Shown: in pieces, positions 1,610 to 53,200 of the stretch
How positions within the stretch are numbered: the first letter of the stretch is position 1
Layout: each line of letters starts with the position of its first letter
Source: a virus
Direction: 5' to 3' (one strand)
DNA length: 64,000 nt
Virus record (IMG/VR): IMGVR_UViG_3300032308_002246
Location: 1-64,000 of that record
Program-made: the position numbers and the translations under genes
The notes under the pieces: model-generated
Database searches by the model: none
Told to the model about the DNA's origin: nothing
Seen by the model: only the letters and a program-made list of their open reading frames with translations

Positions 1610-1751
1610 ATACGCCACCGTCATCAAAAAAGACCTTGGCCGGCTGGTATGCAGTCCCGACAACCGCATACCAGCAGACTGTGCAGTCCCGACTTGAATC
1701 TGCACGTCATCTTTGGCCATCCGGTAATTTTAGCGGGGCTTAAAAGCTTTG
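1610..1751 (-). ncRNA. dispersed structured element, copy E1
   Basis: Non-coding interval flush with the genes on both sides. It carries the three blocks shared by five elements in 1.6-8.6 kb: CGCCACCGTCATC (1613), GCAGTCCCGAC (1651 and again 1683) and GCGGGGCT followed by AAAGCTTT (1733). The first AGTCCCG lies in the loop of a perfect 10-bp hairpin (GCTGGTATGC/GCATACCAGC, 1643-1675). AGTCCCG can pair with the distal CGGGGCT. The direction of transcription is uncertain; minus is chosen from the neighbours. Confidence 0.55.
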
Positions 1752-2138
1752 TCAATCGTTTTTAGCTTCTTCTGCAGCTGCCAGGCCGGCGAATCGCTCG
1801 ACGTGCTTTGCATCACGAAGGATTAACTCAATATCGTCGTACTTTGTTCCTGTGGGATTTTCTCCCATATGCCAAGAAGACAAGCTACATCCTTGAACTG
1901 CAAGTAAACAATCAGTGATTCCGTAATCATAAATCGCAGAGCCGATAATTATCATTCGTTCTTCTGAAAGCTTCGGCCGAACTCCCCGGCTGCTTGTCTT
2001 ACACCACCGTAACCATTCATCGAAAACTTGTTGAATCTCAGCGGGGCTTACAAGCTTTGACTTCGCACGTTTTGATTTCTTTGTTTTTGTTTCCCGGGCC
2101 GGTGCCGGCTCATCAAAACCAAACAAATTTTCATTCAT
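1752..2138 (-). CDS. putative phage replication-initiation accessory protein
   Basis: 128 aa from ATG at 2138, chosen because AGGA lies seven bases upstream; an in-frame extension to 2270 has no ribosome site. The N-terminus (MNENLFGFDEPAPARE) and a lysine-rich linker precede a conserved C-terminal domain, with a helix EIQQVFDEWLRWCK and then SWHMGENPTGTKYDDIELIL and RDAKHVERF. This last pattern is typical of a phage domain found in replication-protein C-termini. The linker DNA also contains GCGGGGCTTACAAGCTTTGA, matching the 3' block of element E1. Confidence 0.55.
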   Translation of the reverse strand: MNENLFGFDEPAPARETKTKKSKRAKSKLVSPAEIQQVFDEWLRWCKTSSRGVRPKLSEERMIIIGSAIYDYGITDCLLAVQGCSLSSWHMGENPTGTKYDDIELILRDAKHVERFAGLAAAEEAKND

Positions 2139-2536
2139 AAAAACATCCTGGCGCGACATTTGCAAAAAAGCAACTGCTTGTTCACAAACCCTTTGTAGTA
2201 CAAACGTTTTTACTGGTTTATCTACAGGAGCAACTAGGTCATCAACCACCGTGCCAAGTTTATTGAACATTGAATGAGCTACCGAAGGAGCAGCACGCGA
2301 GAGAAGAGCAACTTTTATCAGAGGAAGCTTTCTAACGTCTGAAGAAGTAAATCACTAGAACTACTTTTTAGCGGTGAACCGTAGCGCGTAAATCAAATCC
2401 GGTCAAGCACGGGACTGAAATCTTTTGCTGTATGATTTACGTCGGCCAGGGGCCCCCTCCTGGTAAGTCGAGCAGGGTTTTCTCCCATCGGAAGCTTCTT
2501 TTCGGTAGGTAATGGTTGAGGAAACCTGCTCGGCGA
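2139..2536. other. non-coding region with a stem-loop
   Basis: No convincing gene. An outer stem CGAGCAGG (2469-2476) pairs with CCTGCTCG (2525-2532) around a loop that contains a GAAGCTTC palindrome. A smaller GC-rich stem-loop (CCAGG/CCTGG) lies just before it near 2445-2462. ACGGGACTGAAATC near 2408 recalls the array motif on the opposite strand. It may be a leader or terminator for the minus-strand genes, but neither end is followed by a clear U-tract. Confidence 0.4.
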
Positions 2537-2617
2537 CTAACTACCAAAAAAAGACAACAGAAGCACCGAAACGATAATTAGAGCTCCAAAAAGCCGCCAT
2601 GCATCAATAACGCTCAT
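2537..2617 (-). CDS. 26-aa single-pass membrane peptide
   Basis: A short gene: MSVIDAWRLFGALII continuing with VSVLLLSFFGS and a TAG stop. AAGGG lies seven bases before the ATG, a good ribosome site. Almost the whole peptide is one hydrophobic segment, so it should insert in the membrane. Phages of this type often carry such peptides; function is unknown. The clear ribosome site and hydrophobic pattern are the only evidence. Confidence 0.55.
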   Translation of the reverse strand: MSVIDAWRLFGALIIVSVLLLSFFGS

Positions 2618-2778
2618 AATTAACCCTTCATCCGGTACCGTCAGAACACATCAATAGTACGGCAAAACGCGTAAGCGGGGCTGAAAAGTACGCTTAAAAC
2701 GCATAAAAGTATTTAAAAAGCGTAATTTTTGCTTAAAAGTACCCCAGGGTGACCCAAAAGTACTAAAAGAGATACTTT
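2618..2778. other. intergenic spacer with AT-rich repeats of GTAC
   Basis: No gene seen. The segment 2690-2775 repeats AAAAGTA/AAAAGTAC five times (near 2684, 2706, 2733, 2756 and 2771), three of them as AAAAGTAC. These may be regulatory boxes downstream of the 2779-2997 gene and upstream of the membrane-peptide gene. Confidence 0.35.
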
Positions 2779-2997
2779 TTAGCTTTTTACCTTCACTTTG
2801 TGGAATTCAACCCACTTCTCACCGTTGCCGATGAGCGGAGAAACCAAAACGTCGTAGTGGCCGTAGCGAAAACGCTCTTTGATGATTTTGATTCCAACAG
2901 AAAGCTCATCGATGAAGACAACGCCTTCTTTACCGATTGCGGAGTTCATGCTCGTCTGTTCGGTGCGTGAATATGTTCGTATTTCTTGCTTTTCCAT
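2779..2997 (-). CDS. hypothetical protein
   Basis: 72 aa, not recognised. It is predicted as mixed alpha/beta: VVFIDELSVGIKIIKERF and HYDVLVSPLIGNGEKWVEFHKVKVK look like beta strands flanking a short helix. Start and stop of adjacent genes touch at 2997, so it is translationally coupled to the gene upstream (2997-3224). Confidence 0.65.
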   Translation of the reverse strand: MEKQEIRTYSRTEQTSMNSAIGKEGVVFIDELSVGIKIIKERFRYGHYDVLVSPLIGNGEKWVEFHKVKVKS

Positions 2998-3224
2998 TAA
3001 ATGCCGCTTTCCTTTTCTAAACGAAACTTGTTGCTCGCCATTGTTGCCAAGTACTCATCAAAAGACATGTTAAAAGGGAAAATATCGCTGTTAACCATCT
3101 CAAGCTGATGCTCATCGAGCGTCTGCCAAGCATCCAGGAGCTTGTAGCCGGCAAGAACATACTCATTGAATGCAACTAAGAACTCTTGCGAAAGTTTGGG
3201 TGTTTTAATAACTGATTCTTTCAT
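2997..3224 (-). CDS. hypothetical protein
   Basis: 75 aa, not recognised. Mostly helical (KLSQEFLVAFNEYVLAGYKL) with an acidic C-terminal half. AGGA lies eight bases before the ATG. It is the first gene of a two-gene unit with 2779-2997. Confidence 0.65.
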   Translation of the reverse strand: MKESVIKTPKLSQEFLVAFNEYVLAGYKLLDAWQTLDEHQLEMVNSDIFPFNMSFDEYLATMASNKFRLEKESGI

Positions 3225-3325
3225 AATTTAAATCCTAACGACTTGCAAGGTCCAACACAACCAAAAAGTGGGTGCTCCTCATAAGAAGAGCACCCACAGA
3301 ATGAGTAAGACGACGGCTGCCTGCA

Positions 3326-3538
3326 TTAAACGCCGGCAAGCATGCTCTCTGGCTTTACTCCGAAAGCAACAGAGATGCGAAGCAACGTCTCAATATTTGG
3401 CGAGAAGTGTCCGTTCTCAATGCGGTTGATTGTCTTGCGGTCCACGCCGGCAAAATCTGCGAGCTGTTGCTGTGTAAGCCCAGCTTCGAGGCGATTCTGT
3501 TTGATGCGCGATGCAACTTTCTTGATGCGGGTTTGCAT
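3326..3538 (-). CDS. XRE-family helix-turn-helix regulator
   Basis: 70 aa, essentially a single Cro/C1-type HTH domain. SRIKQNRLEAGLTQQQLADF forms helices 1-2, GVDRKTINRIENGHFSPN holds the recognition helix and the conserved ENG, and ETLLRISVAFGVKPESML closes the fold. AAGGAG precedes the ATG. A small stand-alone XRE protein in a phage typically represses an operator. The target here is unknown, though the intergenic space on both sides (3225-3325 and 3539-3568) is a candidate. Confidence 0.88.
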   Translation of the reverse strand: MQTRIKKVASRIKQNRLEAGLTQQQLADFAGVDRKTINRIENGHFSPNIETLLRISVAFGVKPESMLAGV

Positions 3539-3568
3539 TTTTTTCTCCTTGTTTTATCCTGGCCAGGT

Positions 3569-3751
3569 TTAGCCAGAAACCTTGTTAACTTCTAAATCAA
3601 CTGTTGTTGTGTTGTAGTCTGCACGCTTTTCGTAATCAATTCCGCTCGGTTCATTTACCGCTGTGTAAATTGCAGTTTCAAGATGTGCAATTTCATCGTC
3701 GGTCATTTCACGATTGGTTGAAAAACTAATTTTAATTTTGTATTCGGCCAT
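3569..3751 (-). CDS. hypothetical protein
   Basis: 60 aa from ATG at 3751, which overlaps the stop of the upstream gene as TAATG; the in-frame ATG at 3763 would overlap it further. An alternating pattern (EYKIKISFSTN, then a helix DDEIAHLETAIYTAV, then TTTVDLEV) suggests a small beta-alpha-beta fold. Translationally coupled to 3751-4101; function unknown. Confidence 0.65.
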   Translation of the reverse strand: MAEYKIKISFSTNREMTDDEIAHLETAIYTAVNEPSGIDYEKRADYNTTTVDLEVNKVSG

Positions 3752-4101
3752 TAGATTTCCCACCGATTTCCTGCGTTGTATTCTGCAACGAAATATTCAG
3801 CGAAGTGACGAGCTGCGTAGATGCGTGTGAGCACATCAAAAACTTCGTACCACTTATCCGCTGACGAACCATGCTGGCGCATATATTCCTGCGCGCAAAG
3901 CCTCATGGTGTGCTGGAACAGTAATACGGTGAGGTCGATGTTGCTTTCTACTCCCTTTTCAAGATTCCGGTCGTAGTGACGTTGCTGGTTCTTGAATGCC
4001 GGCACTAAGTAGTTGTGATAACAACGACTATCGTTTTCAGCAAACAAGCAAAGCTCTACAGCTTCTTCTCGTGACTGCTCAACCGATTTAACTGATTTCA
4101 T
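3751..4101 (-). CDS. hypothetical helical protein
   Basis: 116 aa, not recognised. It is predicted all-helical with several cysteines and histidines (ELCLFAENDSRCYHNYL) but no clear metal motif. The ATG overlaps the stop of the membrane peptide upstream (ATGA), so it is translated by coupling. It is part of a five-gene minus operon running 5086 to 3569. Confidence 0.65.
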   Translation of the reverse strand: MKSVKSVEQSREEAVELCLFAENDSRCYHNYLVPAFKNQQRHYDRNLEKGVESNIDLTVLLFQHTMRLCAQEYMRQHGSSADKWYEVFDVLTRIYAARHFAEYFVAEYNAGNRWEI

Positions 4102-4271
4102 TTGAACTCCTTTAATAACTTGTTACCAGATACTACATGTGCCCCAGCAACAATGCAACTCCAGATAATTTCTTTTGCCGTAATCCGGGGAGCGGCCAAA
4201 GCCACCCAAACCATGATTACGGTTGAAAAGCTGGTGCCGGCAAAGATTGCCCTGTGAATCCGAATATCCAT
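4098..4271 (-). CDS. 57-aa membrane protein with two hydrophobic segments
   Basis: A gene in a different frame from the larger overlapping open frame. It begins MDIRIHRAIFAGTSFSTVIM, continues through VWVALAAP, and has a second hydrophobic stretch EIIWSCIVAGAHVV before a basic tail. Its ATG overlaps the upstream stop as TGATG, its stop overlaps the next start as ATGA, and AGGATG lies upstream. Both junctions fit exactly into the operon, which supports it strongly. A small phage membrane protein; holin-like or exclusion roles are possible but unproven. Confidence 0.68.
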   Translation of the reverse strand: MDIRIHRAIFAGTSFSTVIMVWVALAAPRITAKEIIWSCIVAGAHVVSGNKLLKEFK

Positions 4272-4510
4272 CACAGGTCATCCTGCATATGGTCACGGCC
4301 CACATAGATGGTGTCCTCTTCAATCTCTTCAAGCTCTAAATCGGAGAACGAGTCGCTGATGAAGTCGGAGTTCTCGTTGAGCCAGTAGCCCTGCTGGTCG
4401 ACGGTCCACTCTTCCCATTCAGCTGGAAGCTCCTTGTTCAAGCTGTAGACAATGTAGCGGTCCTGCGTCTGCAGGCGTGATTCCCGGTTTGTTACATGGT
4501 AAATAGTCAT
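4271..4510 (-). CDS. hypothetical acidic protein
   Basis: 79 aa, strongly acidic in its C-terminal half (FSDLELEEIEEDTIYVGRDH). The N-terminus MTIYHVTNRESRLQTQDRYI suggests a small beta-rich fold. No known family recognised. Very acidic small phage proteins often mimic DNA or bind host proteins, but that is speculation here. Confidence 0.65.
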   Translation of the reverse strand: MTIYHVTNRESRLQTQDRYIVYSLNKELPAEWEEWTVDQQGYWLNENSDFISDSFSDLELEEIEEDTIYVGRDHMQDDL

Positions 4511-4511
4511 T

Positions 4512-4802
4512 TCACACCTCTGCGAATTGTGGAATCAAGCTAATGAAACCATCATTTGGATTATCGTTATCTGTCCAGACAGCTGAGATGAAGCGGAGTC
4601 CGCATGAAACATCCCACCACTCCTGAATTTTCTCATACATCTCCCAAGGGGCGCCACGAAAAGAAACTGAATTGTTTTCTTCCGTGTAGTTCCTCTCAAA
4701 CCATGCAGCTTGTTCTGCGTCCATAGCGAGGTAAATCTTGTGACATGAATCCCAAGAGATGAGCAGTGCGCTCATTGTTGCTTTTTCAACGTCTTCCCAC
4801 AT
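4512..4802 (-). CDS. hypothetical protein
   Basis: 96 aa from the ATG at 4802, which has AGGAGG seven bases upstream; an in-frame extension to 4892 lacks a site and runs through the preceding gene. Sequence features: MWEDVEKATMSALLISW, an aromatic core PWEMYEKIQEWWDV, and a C-terminal beta strand GFISLIPQF. Not recognised. Confidence 0.68.
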   Translation of the reverse strand: MWEDVEKATMSALLISWDSCHKIYLAMDAEQAAWFERNYTEENNSVSFRGAPWEMYEKIQEWWDVSCGLRFISAVWTDNDNPNDGFISLIPQFAEV

Positions 4803-4804
4803 GA

Positions 4805-5086
4805 TTAGGCCTCCTGCATATGGTCGAGGAATGACCAGAGGTGGAATGTGTCCATGAGGGTTCCAGCCTTGACGGAGGTCTGATTGCGCCACATGACGCC
4901 AGCTGGGAGCTGTACGAGCTCATGGAGAGCTTCCTGCTCAGCGTGGAGGATTGCTTCCTTGCATGGCTTAACCATGACAGATGGAACACTTGGATAATGA
5001 TTCTGTGCGAGGTGAAGAGCAATCATTGAATCGAGGTCAAGCTTCCACCCCTCTTCAATAAGGTCTTCAATGAACTTACGGCCCAT
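4805..5086 (-). CDS. hypothetical protein
   Basis: 93 aa from the ATG at 5086 (MGRKFIEDLIEEGWKLDL), preceded by AAAGGAG; the longer frame to 5149 has no ribosome site. Mainly helical and rich in His and Leu. It is the first gene of the minus operon that reaches 3569. Not recognised. Confidence 0.68.
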   Translation of the reverse strand: MGRKFIEDLIEEGWKLDLDSMIALHLAQNHYPSVPSVMVKPCKEAILHAEQEALHELVQLPAGVMWRNQTSVKAGTLMDTFHLWSFLDHMQEA

Positions 5087-5247
5087 GGGCTCTCCTTTAA
5101 TAGATGTACTTGATGGGGTACATAGTAGCGGCTTACAACCAACAAGCAAACATTTTCAAACATTTTTTTTTGATTTTTTTTACCTGAAAAACTGGTCCAC
5201 GACATCGAGCGAAGCAGAATTATTCGCTGAGCTACCTGGGCCCGGCA

Positions 5248-5370
5248 TCATCCGCCACCGTCATTAAAAATTCCCAAACCTTGCAGTCCCGCTTGGTTTA
5301 AACCGTTTCAAGATGTCGGTCGAAGTCGCAGTTCGCACGCACGCGCGCGGGCGGGGCTACAAAGCTTTTG
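5248..5370 (-). ncRNA. dispersed structured element, copy E2
   Basis: Second copy of the element. It has CATCCGCCACCGTCAT (5249), GCAGTCCCGC (5283) in the loop of an AAACC/GGTTT stem, and GCGGGGCT followed by AAAGCTTTTG (5351-5370). The outer ATTCGCTG upstream (near 5223) is also shared with copy E3. No ORF of note. Confidence 0.55.
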
Positions 5371-5435
5371 ATTTGATTCGACTAGGGCCCGGGAAATCTT
5401 CTGCTCTGCAAGAACTGCAGCTGCCAGGAAAAAAG

Positions 5436-5483
5436 AGAATAAAAAAAGGGGGGTCGCTCACCCTTTCGGTAGAACGACCCCCC
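5436..5483 (-). terminator. Rho-independent terminator
   Basis: On the minus strand a perfect 9-bp stem GGGGGGTCG/CGACCCCCC (5448-5483) is followed directly by TTTTTTTATTC, a textbook intrinsic terminator. It would end transcripts coming from the 6175 side, between elements E3 and E2. Confidence 0.85.
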
Positions 5484-5612
5484 TGCTTATCTTCTATTCA
5501 TAGAAGCTCCTTAGGTAGGTAGGGACACATTAGCCACAGCTCAAATAAAAAGCAACCTCAGCGAAAAGATTTTTTTGAACATATTCGCTGCGTCGGCCGA
5601 GCTGTGCAGAAT

Positions 5613-5727
5613 CATCCGACACCGTCATCAAATTGCTCGAATAGCGCCTGGTAGTCCCGCACGGTGTTATTTGGAAGACTTTGACCAGATGGCAGCGCGC
5701 AAGTGCGTGCGGGGCTGAATAGCTCCA
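5613..5727 (-). ncRNA. dispersed structured element, copy E3
   Basis: Third copy: CATCCGACACCGTCAT (5613), GTAGTCCCGC (5651) in a loop flanked by AGCGCC/GGTGTT (with wobble pairs), and GCGGGGCT then AATAGCT (5709-5725). Copies E2, E3 and E4 lie in tandem in the 900-base gene-free interval 5087-5971. Confidence 0.52.
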
Positions 5728-5864
5728 AACTGGGTTTTGTTTGATTGTTTATAGCTCGTGCGGAAAAAAGTCAACGTGTTCTTATTTGCAAGAGTTGAAA
5801 ACTAGGACCTAAAGTTATTGGTGATTTAGCGCTAAATACAATTCTGGTTCCGTTTTTCCCGGGT

Positions 5865-5970
5865 CATCCGCCGCCGTCGACGTGTTGCAGAAGAAAACAG
5901 CGCAACGCGGTCCCGACTGTTGTTTGAGGGCTTGCGACACCCCAGAAGGGTGGAGCGGGGCTAAATAGCT
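5865..5970 (-). ncRNA. dispersed structured element, copy E4
   Basis: Fourth copy: CATCCGCCGCCGTCGA (5865), GGTCCCGAC (5909) in the loop of an AACAG/CTGTT stem, and GCGGGGCT then AAATAGCTTC (5955-5972). It abuts the stop codon of the gene at 5972. Confidence 0.52.
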
Positions 5971-5971
5971 T

Positions 5972-6175
5972 CTAGAACAAGCTTCGTGCGTATGGACCCC
6001 GCAACGCTGAGAGTTTTTTGCTTCGTTCGGGTTCAGGTAAAAGATTTATCTGCTCAAGGCGTTTCTGCCGCTTACGTTCCCGTTCGTATTCACGCCTACG
6101 AAGCTTTTTAGAGAATGTATTCTCCCTGTTCTCACGCTGCCAGGCTTTTTGTTTCTCTTTATCCTTGTAAGGCAT
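5972..6175 (-). CDS. small basic helical protein
   Basis: 67 aa from ATG 6175 (MPYKDKEKQKAWQRENRENT) with GGAGG four bases before the start; the frame to 6256 is not needed. Very rich in Lys, Arg and Glu, forming a charged helix (RRREYERERKRQKRLEQI). The MPYKD.EKQKA..RE opening is common in phage HNH-associated and small DNA-binding proteins, but no HNH motif is present. Probably nucleic-acid binding. Confidence 0.6.
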   Translation of the reverse strand: MPYKDKEKQKAWQRENRENTFSKKLRRREYERERKRQKRLEQINLLPEPERSKKLSALRGPYARSLF

Positions 6176-6443
6176 GCATCCTCCGATGTAGAGTGTTTGA
6201 ATGTCAGGTTTAGTCCCTTGTAACTTTTGTGGCAACCTTGTTGACACTACAAGCAAATCAACGATGCGTCTAGTGAGAGCATGGTTACCTTGCGGCAGTA
6301 TTTCCGGGGCAAAGAGTATTGATGAGCTTTTTCTATACGCACATAAAATTTGCGTAGAAGTAAAACATCATGAGATACCCATGGACAAACTGTTTTAGTT
6401 GAACACGCAGAAAATAATCAACAGTACGACGATTGCGTACAAC

Positions 6444-6944
6444 CTAAACCTCAGTCCGGACGAACGGGCAAGGAGCCTCGATGTTGAATACCTCTTCATA
6501 TAGCGCCCTCCCTGATGCCCATGTACCCCACGACAGTGGGTCTCCTGTCCATTCACCGTCAGAACTTACCTGCAGCAATTTGCCGTAGATTACTTTTGCT
6601 CGAATAAGGATAGCTGTAACTACCGCATCGTACGGTTTCTGCGCTGTCTTGCAAAAGTCAAAGTAGAACAAATCGTCTTTGCGCCACTCAGGTTGCACAG
6701 GATTTGCTTCCCACCGGAATGTCTCGTGCGACAAATCACCGTTAGGGCCGTCTTCACCATTGAAAGCAAAATATGCTTCGGTAAATTCAGGCGATGTGCC
6801 CACCTCTCCGAAAGGTCCTGCTAGGCGAATGCCGATGGACTGTGCGTGCTCACAAATAGCTTTTGCATCTAGTGCAAGCCGCCCAAACATTTCTGCTGTT
6901 CCATGATTTCCTACAGGCCTATCCGTGTAATGCGTGTAACCCAT
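6444..6944 (-). CDS. conserved phage protein (MGYTHY family)
   Basis: 166 aa beginning MGYTHYTDRPVGNHGTAEMF, a recognisable opening of a widespread phage family of unknown function. Aromatic-rich: ETFRWEANP and DDLFYFDFCKTAQKPYDAV, ending in a helix and a proline-rich tail. GGGAG lies in front of the ATG. Last gene of the four-gene operon 7968-6444. Confidence 0.72.
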   Translation of the reverse strand: MGYTHYTDRPVGNHGTAEMFGRLALDAKAICEHAQSIGIRLAGPFGEVGTSPEFTEAYFAFNGEDGPNGDLSHETFRWEANPVQPEWRKDDLFYFDFCKTAQKPYDAVVTAILIRAKVIYGKLLQVSSDGEWTGDPLSWGTWASGRALYEEVFNIEAPCPFVRTEV

Positions 6945-7229
6945 TTACTTCTCCCTCGTCATACTCATAATTCCCCATGAAGCAGAAAGCGGCAAGCCGT
7001 CCCTGCCGGCAACAAGCATCATTTTTGCTCGCCATGCCGGGTGATTGTACATACCTTCGCTCGTTGTGTCTTTCCCAACAACGACAACATGCTTATCGCC
7101 ACTGAGACGAACTCCGCTGTCTTTCCTGTAAGCCGAAGCTTCACCAGTCGAGCCAACAATAAGGACCTTCTCAAGAGGACAAGCTTCGCCCGTGTACTTG
7201 TTGACCACATATCCGATGTTTGTACTCAT
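6945..7229 (-). CDS. hypothetical protein
   Basis: 94 aa, not recognised. It has short beta-like segments (EKVLIVGSTGEASAYRK, KHVVVVGKDTTSEG) and a C-terminal AGRDGLPLSASWGIMSM. Overlaps its upstream neighbour by four bases and abuts the next, so it is co-translated. Confidence 0.65.
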   Translation of the reverse strand: MSTNIGYVVNKYTGEACPLEKVLIVGSTGEASAYRKDSGVRLSGDKHVVVVGKDTTSEGMYNHPAWRAKMMLVAGRDGLPLSASWGIMSMTREK

Positions 7230-7495
7230 GATGCGTTCTCCAAGACATGGATAGAAAGCTCACCAGAACGAAGCCAATCAAAAGCTTCGGTCCGAACCCA
7301 CTCATTGCACAACGCGGCGAAGATATCTGCAGTGCCTGGTTCTCCGATTTCTCCAATCATGCTTTTTGCCGTCTCGATGTCCCACATGCGAATTTGTGCA
7401 AATGGTTTCAGCGGAGCTTTGGTGTGCAAGATGTCGCAGTACGGACCCCCATTCCAGACGAACTTGAACATGCTTACCGTCAGTGTGAGCCTCAT
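7226..7495 (-). CDS. hypothetical protein
   Basis: 89 aa, not recognised. Starts MRLTLTVSMFKFVWNGGPYC and continues with a helix TAKSMIGEIGE and a C-terminal VRTEAFDWLRSGELSIHVL. It is coupled by 4-base overlaps to genes on both sides. Confidence 0.65.
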   Translation of the reverse strand: MRLTLTVSMFKFVWNGGPYCDILHTKAPLKPFAQIRMWDIETAKSMIGEIGEPGTADIFAALCNEWVRTEAFDWLRSGELSIHVLENAS

Positions 7496-7968
7496 TTTGT
7501 TACCTCAGCCGCAGCAATGCTTTCCGCTGCAAGGATGTTTGCCATCACAAGACGAATTGCATCAGCAAGACTTCCACGACCTGCAAGGTCGGTAAGAATT
7601 TCTCCGTCGTCGTCAAGGCTCATCACCGAAGCAATGCGGCATGTCCGGTCAATAACACTCAACATACGCACGCGACGGCGTTCTGGGTGCTGGCTAGGGG
7701 CAATTTCATCGTCGCCTTCTTCCCGAATAGGAGCTGCCCAACCAGAGGTTTCAACTCCAAGAAACTCAAAGTCGTGAAGTGTTTCTTCGTCAGTCTCTTT
7801 GGCGATGTTCTCCAGACCGACGTAAACGTCACCGTAGACACCAAGTGTCACCAGCTGCCCGTCACGGCTCTTGAAAATATGGCATGTTGACTTCGTAAGA
7901 CCCGGCCAGTTCGCCAAGTCATTGAAAATTTCTGTTGCAGCTTCTGTGAGCTCTAAATTGCTTTTCAT
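7492..7968 (-). CDS. hypothetical protein
   Basis: 158 aa, first gene of the operon, with AAAGGAAA upstream of its ATG. It has a helical start (ELTEAATEIFNDLANW), a beta region (QLVTLGVYGDVYVGLENI), an acidic middle and an alanine-rich C-terminal helix (DAIRLVMANILAAESIAAAE). No family recognised. Confidence 0.68.
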   Translation of the reverse strand: MKSNLELTEAATEIFNDLANWPGLTKSTCHIFKSRDGQLVTLGVYGDVYVGLENIAKETDEETLHDFEFLGVETSGWAAPIREEGDDEIAPSQHPERRRVRMLSVIDRTCRIASVMSLDDDGEILTDLAGRGSLADAIRLVMANILAAESIAAAEVTK

Positions 7969-8001
7969 GATGTTTCCTTTTTTTAGTGGGTGATTTTTAT
8001 T

Positions 8002-8172
8002 CTAGTCAATAAGTACGTAGTTATCACCGTTTCCCTCGGTGAGACCGGTGTAAATGATTACCTGACCCTCGTTGTCGTGCTCGATGTCTGCTGTAGGCAG
8101 AAACTCGTACAACGCCTTACGGAACTTCTTTCCTGAAATAACTGTTTTCTTATGAAGTGGTTTCTTAGCCAT
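8002..8172 (-). CDS. small hypothetical protein
   Basis: 56 aa: MAKKPLHKKTVISGKKFRKA leads into LYEFLPTADIEHDNEGQVII and a C-terminal YTGLTEGNGDNYVLID with a TAG stop. GGGG precedes the ATG by seven bases. It fills the gap between the 7492-7968 and 8175-8384 genes exactly. A basic N-terminus and acidic C-terminus; function unknown. Confidence 0.65.
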   Translation of the reverse strand: MAKKPLHKKTVISGKKFRKALYEFLPTADIEHDNEGQVIIYTGLTEGNGDNYVLID

Positions 8173-8174
8173 TG

Positions 8175-8384
8175 CTATTCCCCTTTGATGAATTCGCAGA
8201 TTGATTTTTTAGGCATTTTGCGGTCGAGAACTTCGGTGCCAGTTTCCAAGCCGATGTAGCTGAGCAGATAGGTGCTGCCGTTGATGCGTGTCGGAGCTTT
8301 GATTTCTGTTACCCGATAGTTCTCATGAAAAGCCCAAGTAAAAATGTCTCCTACTTTGAGCTGCTCAATCCGCTTTGTTTGCAT
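8175..8384 (-). CDS. small hypothetical protein
   Basis: About 69 aa from ATG 8384 (MQTKRIEQLKVGDIFTWAF); the longer frame to 8606 runs through element E5 and is rejected. The KVGDIFTW...YRVTEI...STYLLSYIGLETG pattern suggests a small SH3-like beta barrel. No strong ribosome site is visible. Function unknown. Confidence 0.6.
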   Translation of the reverse strand: MQTKRIEQLKVGDIFTWAFHENYRVTEIKAPTRINGSTYLLSYIGLETGTEVLDRKMPKKSICEFIKGE

Positions 8385-8443
8385 GCGTTGAACATTAGGG
8401 GAAATACTTGCGCCTTGCAACCCACAAGGGCTGTGACTTTTGT

Positions 8444-8566
8444 CATCCGCCACCGTCACTTTTTGTTTTCTTTCCTGGAGCCGGCCGTGCGAATTGCAGT
8501 CCCGACTGGGGTGCGTGAGGTTTCCCGGCAGAAGGGCAGGGGGAAGAAGAAGGCGGGGCTTACGAA
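8444..8566 (-). ncRNA. dispersed structured element, copy E5
   Basis: Fifth copy: CATCCGCCACCGTCAC (8444), GCAGTCCCGACTG (8496) and GGCGGGGCTTACG (8552). The element overlaps the last codons of the next gene upstream (8560). In all five copies the minus strand reads GGTGGCGGATGA or close to it at the 3' boundary. Confidence 0.52.
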
Positions 8567-8793
8567 CGCTGATGCAACTTGACGTTGCGACCATTGATGT
8601 CGTCATCCCAAAAAGAATGCACTAATTCCATCTCAACAGTGCTTGAAGTGTGCTTTTCTTTATTACTGCACGACGCTTGCATTGCAGGAACGCCAATAGT
8701 AACCTCATACCCACAGTTAGGGCAACGCCATAATTCCGTACGGGACTGTGGTTTACTTTTCTTGCGTGTCATAGTCATTTCATTTTGCATCAT
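8560..8793 (-). CDS. zinc-ribbon protein
   Basis: 77 aa from ATG 8793 with GGAG nearby. A basic N-terminus (TRKKSKPQSRTELWR) leads to CPNCGYEVTIGVPAMQASC, giving a CxxC pair and a distal cysteine followed by SNKEKH, probably a small zinc-binding domain. The C-terminal VEMELVHSFWDDDINGRN is acidic and aromatic. Leftmost gene before the hairpin array. Confidence 0.65.
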   Translation of the reverse strand: MMQNEMTMTRKKSKPQSRTELWRCPNCGYEVTIGVPAMQASCSNKEKHTSSTVEMELVHSFWDDDINGRNVKLHQRS

Positions 8794-9734
8794 TTTGCTC
8801 CATCCTGGCGAAAGAGATACTAATAGGCAGGACAACTCTTTTACTGCATGTCCTTTAGTCCCGCCAAATGGACTCTAATCACAATCCCCGCTCAATTGCA
8901 ACCTCGCTCTGGTTCCGCTTCGCAGCCCAGATTACGCCAGACTTCGTCGTGGCTTCACCTGGGTTCCTCGCTACACCAAGGCTCGGTCTTATCTCGCTTT
9001 TTCGACATTCACGCTCCACCTGCACCACCGCTACAAAACGCTTTCCGCTTCGCTACAAGCAGTTTTTCCGCTCAGGTGCTGGTTGCGCGATGAAATGTCT
9101 CAATACTCGAAACATTGATTGCCTGTAATTGCTTTTTAGTCCCGATGCCCCCATGACAACCTCCGTGCTCATTTGGTGACATCGCAAGGCTCCGCAGGCT
9201 CGTTTCGTATGCACTCAAATCCGCTGCCGACAAGCGGCGCGTCTTCAGTGCACCGATGCGTTATCACGCGTCGGCAAGTACTCCACTTGCCTTCTACGCC
9301 GTGCTCAGTAACCAATCGCACTACCAGCGACATTCATGAACTCACGACCGCCCGCTACAGTCCCCGGACTTCGTTCCTCGTCACGGGGAACTTCCGCTAT
9401 CGGTCGTTCCGTTCAATGAAGTGTCTTCCTTGCTTCATTTGATAATTAGTCCCGACTCTCATAACCAAGACCCGGCGATTTACTCATTAACGCATTCTCT
9501 CGGAAACACCGCTCGTGCTCCGCTCGTGTTCGCTTGAAGAGACTTCGGCGCTCCACGAAGCTACGTCACGAGCTCCGTTTCCTGCGCGAAATGCGCACGT
9601 TTATTAGTCCCGATTGATTATTGAATGACAATCCCCGCTTGTTCTTTTTCCCACAAACAGCCTCGCTACTCTCGCAATCCTGCCTCTCCGCCATAGCGAC
9701 GGACCACTTCAATCGCTTCAGTTTGTTTCCCGGG

Positions 9735-9786
9735 TTGGTGAGTTCTTCGAACCACCAAACTCCATATCGAATCCTGCTTCGATATG
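9735..9786. ncRNA. paired stem-loops in array unit d
   Basis: Two adjacent hairpins: TTGGTG/CACCAA around AGTTCTTCGAAC (9735-9758), then CATATCGAA/TTCGATATG (9763-9786), a perfect 9-bp stem. The same arrangement recurs in unit f at 10190-10235. Confidence 0.65.
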
Positions 9787-10189
9787 TAGTCAAGCCCGTA
9801 CAACAAACATCGCTCATTCGTGTTCCTAGCCATGGCTCCGATTCAGGAACTGCTCGCTCCGCAGGCTTCTTGTGTGAAAAGAGAAACATCGCTACTCACT
9901 AGTCCCGTAATAAGTAATAACACAACTCCGGTAGACGCACTTTCTGTTTCTATCCAACCGCCCGCTTCGCCCGTGCACGCAAGGGCATGCTGCCCACGCA
10001 CGCACGAGGCTACGCTTGGCTACTGGATAGCACCAGAAGAGTGCTCTTATTCAGACTCTTAAGCCCCGTAGATAATTGAATAACAATCACCGCTCGTGTT
10101 CCGAGTACTCCACATTCAACGCTACGTTCGCAATTCTGGCTCTCCGACATCACTGCGGACACTTCAGTCGTTTCAGTTTGCTTGTCGGG

Positions 10190-10235
10190 TTGGTGAGTTC
10201 TTCGAACCACCAAGCTCATACCAATGGATTGGTAT
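10190..10235. ncRNA. paired stem-loops in array unit f
   Basis: TTGGTG/CACCAA (10190-10213) is identical to unit d. The second stem is ATACCAAT/ATTGGTAT (10218-10235), different in sequence on both arms from CATATCGAA/TTCGATATG of unit d but equally paired. That is a compensatory change. Confidence 0.65.
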
Positions 10236-10555
10236 TTCGCCAAGCCCGAACGCAAACATCACTCCTTCGTGTACCTGGCGATGTCTCCAATCCAGAAAAT
10301 GCTTCACTACGCTTTTGAATGTTACGTACTCAGAAACTACATCGCTAAGTTGATAGTCCCGTAAAAAGTAACAAGACAACTACCGTTACTCTCCCTCACA
10401 CTGGTGATGCTCCGCTCGGTGCTCGGTTTCGGAGTAATCCGAATTCCTCACACCGAAACTACGCAGCACCCGTCGCTCGGTCGAGATAACTAACCACTAC
10501 TAATAAAACTTTATAGTCCCGTGCAGATTTATCTAACAACTTTGGCACCAGCGAA

Positions 10556-10622
10556 TTCCCACGGAGCGAGGCATCGAAATCACAAATGATTTCGTGCTCG
10601 CTGAGCGGGGGGCCGTGGGAAG
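10556..10622. ncRNA. long hairpin in array unit h
   Basis: TTCCCACGG (10556) pairs with CCGTGGGAA (10613), AGCGAG with CTCGCT, and ATCGAAATC with GATTTCG, giving one long interrupted hairpin that fills most of the unit. Confidence 0.65.
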
Positions 10623-11475
10623 TACGCTTCCTCATCCCGGATGACAGGTATAACTGTTTAGGTTTTTAGCCCCGTACGGACATTGAATGAATAGTTCCCG
10701 CTTATCCATATACGAAATCTTTACCGAGTTCAACGCTACGGATGTTTTCGTCCGCTGCGCAGCCTCAACAACCCTCCGCTTTTGAACCCGGTAACCGTCG
10801 ATTCATAGTTTCGCTGCGCTTCACTAGAATCGCCTAGATTTCTTATCTGTCTAAGCTGTTTGAAAGAAAACATTGATTCAAGCACTAGTTAGTCCCGAGA
10901 CTTCAATAGATGATTATCTTTGATTGCGACATCCCGGATATCCACCTCGTTAGAGCGCTACTCCTGCATTTCTCTGCTCCAGAAGTTCGGTCGCACGGTC
11001 GCTTCGCTTATGCTAGCGCCGAATTGCTGTCGCACTTCGTTGCTTCGCATTTCCCTACGCATACCGCACTCCTCCTTCTGGCTACGAGAAATGACAGTAT
11101 CCGCTTCCCTAACTCGTTGGACAATCCTGCCCGGTTGTTAGTCCCGTATAAAAATACTCACTCACCGCATACATTTTCTTTTCGACCTACGTTCGCTTTG
11201 CGTTTCCTTCGTACCTCGGAACAGCACGCTCACTCCGAGTCGAACGAAAATGCAATGCTTGCTCGCTCGCAAAAACTAGTCCCGTAAAGACAAACATAAA
11301 GCTTTACTTCGCCTCCTCGCTTGCCAGGCAGACGCCCGGCGTCGTTGTCTCATACTTCGCCAACGCACGCTGGGCGGCTGCTCTGGCTTCGTTCGGAATG
11401 CTCATTGTTGTTAGTTATTAGTCCCGTAATGATTTATCTAACAACTCCCGGCAGTGCCGTTTTTCATGGTTTATT

Positions 11476-11579
11476 AAAAAATACTCCCTCTCTTTTTTTC
11501 TTTTTACCGCTCCAAAAATCGTCGCTTTCGCTCGTGCCTCGCTCAAAAAAGACAAAAAAGAGCCTCTTCCGTATTTTTT
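11476..11579. ncRNA. long hairpin in array unit m
   Basis: AAAAAATAC pairs with GTATTTTTT at the outer ends (11476 and 11571), and the T-rich CTCTCTTTTTTTC pairs with the A-rich GACAAAAAAGAG. TACTCCCTC and CTTCCGTA flank the stem as in unit r. Confidence 0.6.
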
Positions 11580-12353
11580 AAAAACCAACAGTCGCTCCAC
11601 TCCTTTTCAAAACAGACACATGCCTAACCATGTGGTTATTAGTCCCGTTTTTTATTGTTGAATAAAAGTCCACGCCTACTCGCTTACCTGCGGATGCTTC
11701 CGGCTGTGTCCGCTCTCTTGAGCTACCACAAGCCTTCAGCAGCCGCCCGGTTGCGCTTCGTAAAGCTGTTTGTTGAACATTGCTTATAAAGCATTCTCTA
11801 TAGTCCCGCAAGCTTCGCTTGCTACAAACATCACAACTTTTGCTCGTACTTCTTTCCTCGCTCAGCGAACGCTCGAAATTCCAGAGTGCTCATTATTTCG
11901 CTCTTAAATCTTTTAAGTACACGCGCTCGTATCTCGCCTCGAAAGACTCACCGCTTGAATGGTCTCTAGTCCCGAAGTTTTACTATTTACATTCAAGCTT
12001 CTCGTCTTCCAACGCTCGCATTCTCACTTGTTCCCTTAAAATCTTTAATCGCAAAATAACTGCGCTTCTGGAACCTTCTCGCTCCCGCTCCGCTCAAAAA
12101 GAAAGTAACTTCGCTGTCTGCTCCCGGCAGTAATTAGTCCCGTGTAAATTTTCATCACAATTACCGCATTGCATACAGTCGAACTGTTGCTTCGCTGTTA
12201 GGGCTTTTGACGCTTCGCTTGCACGTGCGACGTGCACAACGCCCTAAACAGCTGCGCAGCATTCCGACTTCGTACGCAAATGCTTACCCGGTTTCTAGTC
12301 CCGAATATATTTAGATAAAAGTCCCCGGAGAAATTGCCTGCTCGTATTCCGCG

Positions 12354-12456
12354 AAAATACTCCCTCCATTTTTTCATTTCACGCTATCGCTCTCAGGCTT
12401 ACGGCCTTTGGCCTACAGCCATTCGGAAATAAAATAAATGGAACCTTCCGTATTCT
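12354..12456. ncRNA. long hairpin in array unit r
   Basis: GAAAATAC pairs with GTATTCTC and CCATTTTTTCATTTC pairs with GGAAATAAAATAAATGG. The layout (TACTCCCTC ... CTTCCGTA, then CAGTCGCT) matches unit m while the arm sequences differ. Confidence 0.6.
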
Positions 12457-12522
12457 CTTGGAATACCAGTCGCTGCGCTCCTTCTGCGCTCCAATTTACT
12501 CCTGGTAGTTGTTAGTCCCGTA

Positions 12523-15205: not shown

Positions 15206-15366
15206 CCGACAACAAAGAAGAGGAAATCGTTGTTCATAATGGCAACGGTTGGCACGGCCTTCCTTACTACTTGACATCATGCGGTCTTGAAGATGGCTCT
15301 TACCATGTCACTTACAACAAAAATTTAGTCACCTGCAAAGAATGTATTAAAGCTGTTAGCGGGTAA
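15163..15366 (+). CDS. small zinc-binding hypothetical protein
   Basis: 67 aa from a GTG at 15163; the true start may be later because the first codons overlap the DUF1599 gene. HNGNGWHGLPYYLTSCGL and LVTCKECIKAV give a histidine and three cysteines in the spacing common to small phage zinc proteins. Its stop overlaps the end of the convergent SNF2 helicase gene. Confidence 0.55.
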   Translation: MGIRNILAKPGAGITDNKEEEIVVHNGNGWHGLPYYLTSCGLEDGSYHVTYNKNLVTCKECIKAVSG

Positions 15367-17293
15367 GTCCTCGTTTTAGATAGTCAAGCACCAACTGGCT
15401 TGATGAATCATCCGATGAGTCGTCTGACCCCTCTACGGCTGCATTGACTATCGAGCGCTTTGACTGAATTAAGTCATAAATCTGCTCGTCAACAGTACCC
15501 GTGGCTATTGCGTACGTAACCATGACTGAACCCTTTTGGCCCAATCGATGGCATCTGCTGTAAAGCTGGTCAACATCTGCTGGAGTCCATGGAAGCTCCA
15601 CAAACAAGACTTTTTGAGCAGCTGTAAGTGTGTGTCCTGTTTTAGCTGCCTGCATTGAAAGAACTATTACAGGAGCTTCTTCTGTTGAAAGAGTTTGAAA
15701 TTCTTTTTTTGCTTTCTCAACATCCTGCACATCCATACCGCCTTGGATTTTTAAACCACCAAACTCGTTTGCCAAGAAATCAACAACATCTCGATGGTGT
15801 GCAGCAATTACAACTTTTTCACCAGCTTCAATTTGGGTCTTTACCCACTCTTTGATTGAGTCCATCTTACCCTTGGCTGCAAGACGGCGTAGAACCGACA
15901 GCTTTACAAGATGAATATTTGATTCAGCTTTTATTTTTGCAACAACGGCAGCTGAGTATGGTGACTTGCCTATTTCTATTGCAATTTCTTTTGCGCGCTG
16001 AACCAAGTACTCGACTATGTCGTCTTCTGCTTTTTTGTATTCTGCTTTGTGCTTTTCAGAAAGACTGACCACATGCCTGTCATGTATTACATCTGGCAGT
16101 TCCGGAAGAACCTGTTCCTTTGTTCTACGTATGTAGCAAAGAGAACGAAGTATTTCATTCAGCTCCTGAAGGTTTGTTGCACCAGATGTATTCCAATGAC
16201 CCCATTTGTCCTTAAATGCACCGCAGTAGCGCCTATAGAAGCCCCAGGTGCCACCTAGCTCGTTTAGACGGCCAATAATCTCAAGTTGGCTTGCGTACTC
16301 AGCCGGCCTGTTTGTTACAGGCGTACCCGTAAGACACAGAACAACTCCAGACTTGATTGTTTTAGAAATTTTTATAGCTGCCTTGGTGCGTTGAGCAGTT
16401 GGTGTCTTTAGGTAGTGAGATTCGTCGCATATTAATGACTTGTATCCCTTGAGGCTCTTTACCCAGTGATGAATATTTGCATAACCGATTACGATTATGT
16501 CGTGCTCTTCTTCTGGGAAAAAAGAACGGTCAGTAACAACAGTTGCTTTTCTAGATGGAATCCATTTCTCTACTTCGGCTTTCCAGTTGAGCACAAGGTT
16601 TGATGGACACATAACTATCGCCGGGTATACATCCTCACCAAGAGACGCACAGTACTCAAGAGTGGCTAAAGCCTGAAGTGTTTTACCAAGTCCCATGTCG
16701 TCAGCAATGAAGCACCTTCTTGCTTGATGTGCATAAGACACACCAGCCATTTGATATGGAAGTAGAGAGCCAGAAATGTTTGGTATTTTTATTTCTGCAC
16801 TACTAGCCCGTGATGCATCTGCTCGTTTTTTACTAACCTCAGCAAACTCTTCAGCGTCAAGATGCAGTTCTGCCGGTACATCTATCTTGAACATTGCGGC
16901 CCATTGAATTGCTTCACGAACAGCAGTCCTAGGTACCCTCCATGCTTTTGATTTTGAATCCCATGTAACGCCCGGAAGCTGTTTTACTGAGCGAACTTTT
17001 ACTTGGTCGTAATTAAAGCCAAGGTAAATCCAGCTATCGTCGCTCCACATGCCAAACGATTTATTCAGTCGTTTTGGTTCGTCAAATAGCATTATCGATG
17101 TATCAACTTCAAAGTCGTGAAGGATTGCAAAGTCTCTAATCTCCGAAAGAGATGTAGCAGGAGCACGCCAAACACGGGCGAGCTTGTCCCATTTAGCCCC
17201 AGGTATCTTATTAATCGCTGCGACCTCGTCTTGGTCGTATGGAAAGTCGATTATGAGATGGTCGTCATTTAGCCAGAGTCGTTTTTCGTTCAT
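15356..17293 (-). CDS. SNF2-family (HARP/SMARCAL1-like) DNA translocase
   Basis: 645 aa. Residues about 20-150 hold two HARP-like repeats (IPGAKWDKLARVWRAP and LPGVTWDSKSKAWRVP). The ATPase core follows: ADDMGLGKTLQALATLEY (Walker A), CDESHYLKTP (DESH box), LTGTPVTNRPAEYA. The C-terminal helicase lobe has VIAAHHRDVVDFL, SMQAAKTGHTLTAA and SRCHRLGQKG. SMARCAL1-type enzymes anneal strands and remodel stalled forks without true unwinding. Likely function in phage replication or repair. It overlaps the WhiB gene upstream by four bases. Confidence 0.93.
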   Translation of the reverse strand: MNEKRLWLNDDHLIIDFPYDQDEVAAINKIPGAKWDKLARVWRAPATSLSEIRDFAILHDFEVDTSIMLFDEPKRLNKSFGMWSDDSWIYLGFNYDQVKVRSVKQLPGVTWDSKSKAWRVPRTAVREAIQWAAMFKIDVPAELHLDAEEFAEVSKKRADASRASSAEIKIPNISGSLLPYQMAGVSYAHQARRCFIADDMGLGKTLQALATLEYCASLGEDVYPAIVMCPSNLVLNWKAEVEKWIPSRKATVVTDRSFFPEEEHDIIVIGYANIHHWVKSLKGYKSLICDESHYLKTPTAQRTKAAIKISKTIKSGVVLCLTGTPVTNRPAEYASQLEIIGRLNELGGTWGFYRRYCGAFKDKWGHWNTSGATNLQELNEILRSLCYIRRTKEQVLPELPDVIHDRHVVSLSEKHKAEYKKAEDDIVEYLVQRAKEIAIEIGKSPYSAAVVAKIKAESNIHLVKLSVLRRLAAKGKMDSIKEWVKTQIEAGEKVVIAAHHRDVVDFLANEFGGLKIQGGMDVQDVEKAKKEFQTLSTEEAPVIVLSMQAAKTGHTLTAAQKVLFVELPWTPADVDQLYSRCHRLGQKGSVMVTYAIATGTVDEQIYDLIQSKRSIVNAAVEGSDDSSDDSSSQLVLDYLKRGLTR

Positions 17294-50216: not shown

Positions 50217-53200
50217 CTATCTTCCTCTATCAAAATTTGCAAAGTCAAAGAGTTTAGGGTCCATTACTTCCAGCTGCTCATTAATTGCTCTTCTAGCAAT
50301 CATGATTGGGTTCATTGGGTCATTGGTAGTGTCGTAAACAAATAGCTCATCAAAGAATGGGTCTAGGTTTGGCAACTGGAAGTAAAGCGTCCTGTTTATA
50401 GCTGGAGGAATCCAGTCAGGAACCATTCTTCCGGTTCTTTCAAATCTTTCTGCATTTCTTTCCAGAATTACATCATCTGGCGAGAAGAAGTAGTGAGCAA
50501 CAACTTTATATCCAGCATTTTTCCAGTTGATGAGGTCTCTATTGCCGTCATTAAACTGACCGCTTGTATCATAAGTCATATCTACGCCCTCTGAAGCAGC
50601 CCTCCTCATTAGTGAGGCGGCCAATGCACGAGACTCTGTGTGGGTAAGGTTGGCAGCATCAGGTAGACGCTTTTCAAACCAGTAACGTGCTTCAGGCATA
50701 ATCATTTTTGCATCATCTGGGTCAACAACTACTGCATCTTCGTATGAAGGTATTCCTGCAAAGTTTGTATTTCTAGCATTTGTTTTGCCGGTTCCAGAAG
50801 CTCCGCCAAGCACATAAACAGTTGGCTGTTCATTGCCACTATCAAACTCAGGTTTTGACACTCTTGCAATGCTGTTTTCTATGTAAGGAACCCAGAGGCC
50901 GTTGTATCTGTCATCAGAAACTCTGTTGCCATTAAGTCTATATTTTTGCGATGTAGAAATTGGGTCTGATGAATTCAGTTCATCAATTGAATATCCAGAC
51001 TGGTATCCAAGCAGGTCGAGGTCTTCTGCAAGAGACTTATCAACTATTGGTCGTGATGGTTTTGCAACCTTTCCAACAGGACCATCTGGATTCCAGGAGT
51101 CACTCTTGAAATCAACGCCCCAAGGCATCAAAGGATGCGGCATCTTGTCATTTGGCAAGAATCTTTCAGCATCTTTTTCAGCTCGTATTTTATTTATTCT
51201 TGCAATTATTCTCTGGTTTCTTATTCTTTGTGCTTTTGCAAGTATGTTCAGTCTCATTGCTAATGACATTCTCAGGTCGCTAAATGGGTCAGCAGAATTT
51301 GAGCCTTCATAATCCTTGCCCATTTTTGCTACAGCTCTTCTCAACCATTCTGCATGTCCAAATGCGATTGGGTACTTGCCTCTTGCTATATCTTCAAGTG
51401 GAACCCAATTTGCAGCTTTCGCATCTGAAGCAGCCGTTACATTTGAATCCCATGGAACAACAAACAAGCCGGCACCAACTCGTGCGCCCTTAACAAATCG
51501 TGGGTCCCAGTCTGGTGATGTAATAATTCCAAGTGGTTTGGCTTCAATTGATGACTCAAGGTCAATTCCAACCTCTTCCAAACCCTCTCTTGTAGCAGTG
51601 GTCATGTAGTCTTCGTTTCCGTCTCGCAATCCTCCAACAAGGGCTTTTGCGTTTGTAAACGGTCCACTCTTTCTGTCAATCATAAGCACTTCAGCTGAGC
51701 GCAAGTCGTTATTGTTCATTCTTATGATTACAGCATCTGAAGCTTGTGTCAATTTGTTTTTAGCAAGAGACCAGTTGTTAGTAGACCATGTAACATCCTC
51801 ATCATCTCCAGATGTGAGGTTTTTACTAATGTCCAGCGGTGAGTAGTTTGACTGTAGATAAGCCGCTCTCCTCAAGTTGTCCGAAGCTATGTCTCGAGGT
51901 CCGTAAACAGTTTCGTAGTACTCGTCCTGTGGTTGCATCTCAGGCATTCCATAGATACCTTCAAATGACTTAATCAAACCATCAAATGTCGACATACTTC
52001 CGGTTGGGGAATCATCGTTGAACAGTTCAATGTGCTTGTCGTTGTTGAATATTGATTTTGCTTTGGCTACCAGGTCTGTGTAATTCTTATAGTCTTTACC
52101 AGAGCGGTCAACCATTGCCTCTATGAGATTTGAACGATAGGCAATCGCCCCAACTATGTCCGATGGCTCTTCTCCTATTTCTCCGTAAATGAATGAAGAG
52201 TTGGTAGGGAGGATTGAGTCTGACGCAAAAGGGGATGCGCCTTCACGGAAGTCGTACGCTGGAATACTCCTGTTAGCCACACCAGATACATACAGGTCCA
52301 TCAACCTTTGTAGTTCTTGTACTTGCTCTGAGTCGGAAGCGGTGTTGTTCCTGATTGCTGGGTTTCTATCTCTGTTGAACCACAGGTTGGATGAGTTGTT
52401 TTCAGCTCTTAGTGCTTCAAGCTCTCTATCTTTTTGCAAAATTGCGTCCCTAGCAATACCCATTTTCCCAACTGGTCCACTCTCATTTGGGAAACGACCC
52501 ATTGAGAATCTCTTTAGAGTAGAAATGCTCTCAGCAAGAAGCTCTGCTTTGCTAGTTCCAAGAGATTGAAGAATATTGGAAAGACCATCATCTCGTCCGT
52601 CTTCTGTTTTTGCAATAGCTGCAATTAAATGCTCTGTGTCAATGATGTTTTCACCACGATTGAGTGCCTCACGAACTGAGTTAATCATTGTTTTTCTAGC
52701 ACCAAAACTTAATGAAATTACTTTTTCTGCGTTTTCATCTAGGTTTTGGGTTGTTGCGTTATTGACTGCATTACGCAAGTCGTTTACATCGATTCCAAGT
52801 CTGTTAAGAACTCTTCCGGCGATGCTTTGATTTACAGATTTCTTGCCAATGTTTTCTCTAGCAAGACCCAAAAGAAGATGCGGTATGGTTACCTCGCTGG
52901 ACTTGCCAAGTTTGGCTTCTTCGTGTGCGTGCACAACCGAAAGGATATTTGGCTTTGTGTATCTGTTTAGAGCCATTTTCCCTATAGGTCCATCATTAGG
53001 TGGAACAATTCTATTGTCACCAAGCTCTGATGATTCGGTAAAGAAGTTCTTTGGTATTTCATCCTCTGATGAATAGTATTCGTATGTTAAATCTTCATAT
53101 CCATTGTCATTCAACCAAGAATCAAATGTTTTTAGATTTTTAAACTTTCGTGGAGATGAAAATGTTGAATCTGGAGCCGCATCAATTACTTCACGCTTGT

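Follow-up and report, generated by a model that had tools for sequence, protein, structure and literature searches.

Previously unrecognised short DNA elements of uncultivated bacterial viruses, possibly sites of cassette exchange

The window analysed here, positions 1–64,000 of the 174 kb IMG/VR record IMGVR_UViG_3300032308_002246, carries a set of dispersed elements built from three blocks: a 15-base block 1, AGTCCCG and GCGGGGCT. A first-pass annotation had recognised five of them, E1 to E5, and all five exist, with block 1 starting at 1608, 5248, 5612, 5864 and 8443, within 1–2 nt of the starts given there. E1 (1608–1752, on the plus strand like all the others) consists of block 1 TCATACGCCACCGTC (1608–1622), two AGTCCCG motifs (1653–1659 and 1685–1691), GCGGGGCT (1733–1740) and an AGCT tail. 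In E2 (5248–5370), block 1 (5248–5262) is followed by AGTCCCG within an AAACC/GGTTT hairpin (5285–5291), GCGGGGCT (5351–5358) and an AGCT tail; in E3 (5612–5730, block 1 at 5612–5626), AGTCCCG (5653–5659) sits within the loop of a long hairpin that includes G-T pairs, ahead of GCGGGGCT (5709–5716) and an AGCT tail. E4 (5864–5976) has block 1 at 5864–5878, GCGGGGCT at 5955–5962 and an AGCT tail, and E5 (8443–8572) has block 1 at 8443–8457, AGTCCCG at 8498–8504 and GCGGGGCT at 8553–8560. AGTCCCG and an AGCT-containing tail had been ascribed to all five; the former is found in E1, E2, E3 and E5, but E4 reads GGTCCCG, and the latter is found in E1–E4, but E5 reads ACGCT.

Two shorter copies accompany them. 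E6 (2628–2692, plus strand) combines block 1 TCATCCGGTACCGTC with GCGGGGCT (2675–2682), lacks AGTCCCG, and is kept in L073, L074 and L075 (L-numbered labels denote other contigs or records compared with the window, W). E7 (1997–2057, plus strand), a probable short copy, consists of TCTTACACCACCGTA (1997–2011) and AGCGGGGCTTACAAGCTT (2040–2057) within the minus-strand open reading frame (ORF) 1752–2270; its tail equals that of E1 at 17 of 18 positions, while its block 1 is more degenerate and AGTCCCG is missing, and it may be a chance match inside coding sequence. Judged against dinucleotide shuffles, the motifs are in clear excess in the window: 25 occurrences of AGTCCCG (3.2 ± 1.8 in shuffles), seven of GCGGGGCT (0.9) and 14 of CATCCGCCACCGTC with up to three mismatches (2.4). 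Clusters of AGTCCCG and GCGGGGCT are restricted to 1.6–12.5 kb of the whole 174 kb record, where all element copies lie on the plus strand and the likely genes of 0.6–8.6 kb on the minus strand. Two features of the minus strand overlap elements. At 1727–1755, a TTGACA-17-TAAAAT promoter match holds in its spacer AGCCCCGC, the complement of the E1 tail. At 5440–5760, a possible tiny transcription unit comprises TTGACT...TATAAA, E3, a ribosome-binding site with ATGAATAGAAGATAA (MNRR) and a strong terminator, GGGGGGTCG...CGACCCCCC TTTTTTT.

The elements belong to one family, as had been proposed, and its spread reaches far beyond the window. Across the 18 copies compared, taken from the window and from three relatives that were collected through the SSB gene adjoining the neighbouring hairpin array and ORF 1752–2270, block 1, AGTCCCG and GCGGGGCT are almost invariant at a mean column identity of 47% overall. 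Between relatives, the blocks TCATCCGCCRCCGTC, AGYCCCG and (G)CGGGRCT are almost unchanged and the remainder diverges; the sequence between blocks varies even among orthologous copies. Pattern scans of IMG/VR, with one mismatch to the consensus allowed (a choice on which the counts depend) and with figures among the matches listed as lower bounds, gave at least about 171 non-redundant copies passing a simple filter, in at least 34 records from diverse phage contigs. Block 1 of the family reads TC[AT]T[CA]CGCC[AG]CCGTC and runs into an A-rich stretch that often reads AAGAAGA. AGYCCCG, present in 130 of the 171 copies, stands about 25 nt beyond block 1, and CGGGRCT, present in only 66, is often 18 nt past AGYCCCG. 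A reading of block 1 as coding sequence (DGGG-stop on the minus strand) was abandoned for lack of a conserved stop. A similar pattern, applied to bacterial and archaeal genomes (257 Gb), gave 14 matches, all apparently by chance, and isolate phages gave no convincing match; a search of the open-licence literature found no published description of the element. These short DNA elements of uncultivated bacterial viruses form a family not recognised before. A WhiB-like regulator encoded by the phage of the window points to an actinobacterial host, and actinobacterial hosts are likely for the carriers.

Apart from the doubtful E7, the elements are intergenic, and their orientation is nearly strict. 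About 280 copies in at least 34 records lie on a single strand per record, save one copy in each of two records (a reversed-pattern control gave about 2). In cassette-type phages, one copy occurs per about 700 bp, between the terminator of one gene and the promoter of the next (for example, L179:7300–8430). The T-run of the terminator is often immediately upstream of the element, and sigma70 promoters, mostly 120–160 nt after block 1, lie downstream on the same strand in 50 cases and on the other strand in 5. Element and promoter thus point the same way in cassette-type phages, whereas in the window the elements are reversed relative to the neighbouring genes, which suggests a site independent of transcription direction. 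The cassette region adjoins an SNF2-type helicase gene in three phages, and a homologue of this gene lies in the window at 15356–17293. In L200 and L153, several cassettes carry a second AGYCCCG-N18-CGGGRCT site about 250 nt past the element, at a near-constant distance.

The tandem cassettes delimited in this way have a median length of 777 bp, and homology between phages switches on and off at block 1. Related contigs supplied both the homology ends (ends of high-scoring segment pairs) and the cassette pairs, and neither are independent events. When a cassette pair is common to two phage groups and both neighbours can be scored, neither neighbour is shared in 105 such non-independent pairs, and both are shared in 20. 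The clearest case is L132:680–1361, which matches L179:10389–11068 at 81% over 691 bp with unrelated flanks on both sides; identity rises at the left block 1 from 0.38 to 0.93 and falls at the right one from 0.93 to 0.47, a clear two-sided switch as judged from the aligned sequences. Further switches at block 1 are seen for L122:6024/L183:8932 (0.96 to 0.55) and L153:1053/L200:6694 (0.83 to 0.45), and L126 differs from L169 by one cassette at an element boundary. In the window, E1 is a limit of homology among the few relatives compared. A crossover within the AGYCCCG loop was also considered, from a few chimeric-looking pairs (L179 6902/7553), and rejected, as the clear switches sit at block 1. 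An apparent extra cassette of 328 bp distinguishes L183:8932–9260 from L122:6024; its left junction is clear and its right junction weak at the DNA level, the latter being backed by tblastx homology of the following cassettes.

Some copies can also present AGYCCCG in a hairpin. A stem around it scores at least 7 in 24 of 121 copies (2.4 expected with swapped flanks) and at least 10 in 14 copies (0.1 expected), and these stems are formed by unrelated sequences in different copies. The hairpin loop described for AGTCCCG in most window copies is therefore a feature of about a fifth of the family, but most copies have no stem. Stem mismatches (12 G-T, 8 A-C) reveal no strand preference. When the plus strand is folded, E1 (z = −3.9) and E3 (z = −3.1) are better than shuffles, whereas E2 (−0.2), E4 (−1.2) and E5 (−0.3) resemble them. 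Pairing of the loop with the tail, as a possible pseudoknot, had been suggested from the complementarity of AGTCCCG and CGGGGCT, and it is not supported. The one variable pair between AGYCCCG and CGGGRCT is T-G in 24, C-G in 9, T-A in 6 and C-A in 6 of 45 copies, as expected for independent positions; the six C/A combinations are unable to pair, and one partner block is absent in many copies. The covariation apparent in W (U-G), L032 (U-A) and L029 (C-G) was rejected on these 45 copies.

The observed features, namely the intergenic and mostly one-way placement, the position between terminator and promoter in cassette-type phages and the homology switch at block 1, lead us to favour, with confidence a little short of even, the reading that the elements are DNA-level cassette-boundary sites, probably recombined at block 1. 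In a large group of uncultivated phages, they would mark the joints of exchangeable transcription cassettes, each a moron-like set of promoter, gene and terminator. The cassettes may recombine at block 1 together with AGYCCCG and, where present, CGGGRCT, through a so far unseen recombinase or through annealing of short shared sequence, and the AGYCCCG-presenting hairpin of some copies might assist a step that involves single strands or a cruciform. In support of this reading, breakpoints of the neighbouring array also fall at the AGYCCCG core. Several points weigh against it. No recombinase of the Phage_integrase, Resolvase or Y1 transposase families was detected in the records searched, although these are mostly fragments. 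Homology would come to switch at any intergenic sequence that is repeated, and the exchange seen at block 1 is therefore no proof that this is its function. The AGYCCCG block and the hairpins are unnecessary for a cassette boundary. The candidate cassettes of L126 and L169 are paralogues, 83% alike, and their difference could be ordinary recombination between paralogous cassettes; rapid divergence of spacers contributes to some of the weaker homology switches. In the window itself, compared with few relatives, E1 is a homology limit, but no full cassette exchange is seen.

It has long been asked what keeps phage genomes modular, and whether the exchange of modules is promoted by defined sequences at their boundaries. 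Morons are promoter-gene-terminator units inserted between phage genes, and modular evolution involves short shared sequence at module joints. The cassettes described here are likewise promoter-gene-terminator units with a short common sequence at their joints; what sets them apart is that a single defined and conserved family forms the joint at many successive cassettes. One conserved element at successive joints in many diverse phages makes purposeful recombination directly testable against mere shared sequence. Dispersed repeats are known from cluster O mycobacteriophages, where a 17-bp palindrome recurs and gene gain or loss between 17-bp direct repeats has been reported (PMC4351075), and from clusters EC, EG and EI of Microbacterium phages (PMC7302621). 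Like the present elements, these repeats have many intergenic copies in actinophages and an obscure function; they are, however, palindromes or single motifs within one cluster, whereas the element described here is asymmetric, has three blocks, occurs across diverse phages and bounds cassettes.

The strongest alternative, a real possibility that we nonetheless consider rather less probable, is that block 1 is an operator, an asymmetric regulator site present once per transcription unit, with cassette exchange as a by-product of the shared sequence. The short, asymmetric, intergenic site, one per transcription unit and mostly 120–160 nt from the −35 box, fits an operator, and the WhiB-like regulator encoded by the phage of the window is in keeping with it. 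Stoperators of cluster A mycobacteriophages are short, conserved, dispersed intergenic phage sites. The elements resemble them and the SPBRE of phage SPbeta, an intergenic motif of 15 bp to which the repressor MrpR binds (PMC10516654), in being short conserved sites (13–15 bp) dispersed between phage genes. They differ from both in sequence, in their position between terminator and promoter, and in the additional AGYCCCG and CGGGRCT blocks and hairpins. Binding to duplex DNA needs no AGYCCCG hairpins with compensating stems, the site comes after the terminator and well ahead of the promoter, and its orientation to genes in the window is opposite to the one seen in cassette-type phages.

An integron-like system distinct from integrons is unlikely, though worth spelling out. 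Here a dedicated recombinase, not yet seen, would act on block 1 and the AGYCCCG core in folded single-stranded DNA, shuffling promoter-gene-terminator cassettes as well as, through that core, the neighbouring array of minus-strand GNA/GNA hairpins. The cassettes share with integron cassette arrays and attC clusters (CALINs), including those of phages (PMC9892861), a tandem arrangement with one gene or a few apiece, a single boundary site for each cassette, uniform site orientation, hairpin potential and the occurrence of common cassettes beside unrelated neighbours. Unlike integron cassettes, they carry their own promoter and terminator. The 7-bp attC cores (RYYYAAC...GTTRRRY) were found in 2 of 171 copies, against 2.05 expected from shuffles, and attC identity was rejected at this chance level. 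The tyrosine integrase family PF00589 was absent from 34 records, mostly fragments (control positive in 14 genomes). For a hairpin element of the IS200/IS605-REP type, the Y1 transposase PF01797 was absent from 25 records (control positive in 5 genomes), though a helper may be encoded elsewhere. For a promoter of a T7-like single-subunit RNA polymerase, the phage polymerase gene (PF00940) gave no match in 25 records, and none in the control either. If a recombinase exists, the elements would represent a second natural cassette system alongside integrons.

Far less probable than an operator is a polar genome-maintenance site for replication, the start of recombination or packaging, comparable to Chi or single-strand-initiation sites, whose orientation would follow the genome and not the genes. 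Strict one-strand orientation, the subset with conserved-loop hairpins and the proximity to SSB or helicase genes in several phages agree with such a site; yet the copies are confined to one region of the window's genome and elsewhere occur one per cassette, with no even spread, and their orientation relative to SSB varies. About as improbable are structured non-coding RNAs of the plus strand with loop-tail pairing: complementary blocks in the window copies and the folding of E1 and E3 speak for them, but the variable pair lacks covariation, many copies miss a partner block, E2, E4 and E5 fold like shuffles, stems have no strand preference, copies in cassette-type phages come after one terminator and before the next promoter with no promoter separating terminator from element, and Rfam gave only tRNAs in the window and no match at nine related loci.

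Next to E5, at 8857–12520, lies an array whose 18 units are delimited by AG[TC]CCCG on the plus strand; each unit forms a hairpin, best on the minus strand, with many GNA/GNA internal loops. Whole units have been gained, lost, duplicated and apparently moved among relatives, and 19 of 48 alignment ends fall within 4 nt of the AGYCCCG core in both sequences (expected, 0.0014 per end). Replication slippage between short direct repeats flanking palindromes could explain the loss of units without an enzyme. Paired positions covary, with 140 double changes in the minus-strand folds, and wobbles favour this strand (59 columns vs 17). GNA/GNA loops and C(GNA)G triloops are noted for their stability in DNA. 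Most 3x3 internal loops of the minus strand are of the GNA/GNA type (18 in W, 22 in L020, 15 in L032; at most 2 in shuffles), and the L032 array has 20 C(GNA)G triloops. An energy-free direct search for GNA/GNA found 6 of 34 in W and 0 of 37 in L032, where the loops appear only in predicted folds. The folded molecule may be either RNA or single-stranded DNA. The array had been taken for an expansion of the elements; the AGYCCCG core, the orientation and the turnover of whole units are indeed common to both, but block 1 is missing from the array, and the elements lack its minus-strand GNA/GNA hairpins and show no clear enrichment of GNA loops. The array thus has the core of the elements but not their architecture, and any further relation is unproven. 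The L032 array follows the same structural grammar with other unit lengths, and single similar units of 143 nt occur in L200 and L153.

Farther along the window, an ORF of 4588 aa (50217–63983, minus strand) was considered as an N4-type virion polymerase and dropped for want of such a match; beyond this, no clear family emerged apart from a weak NUDIX-hydrolase-like stretch at residues 4084–4218.

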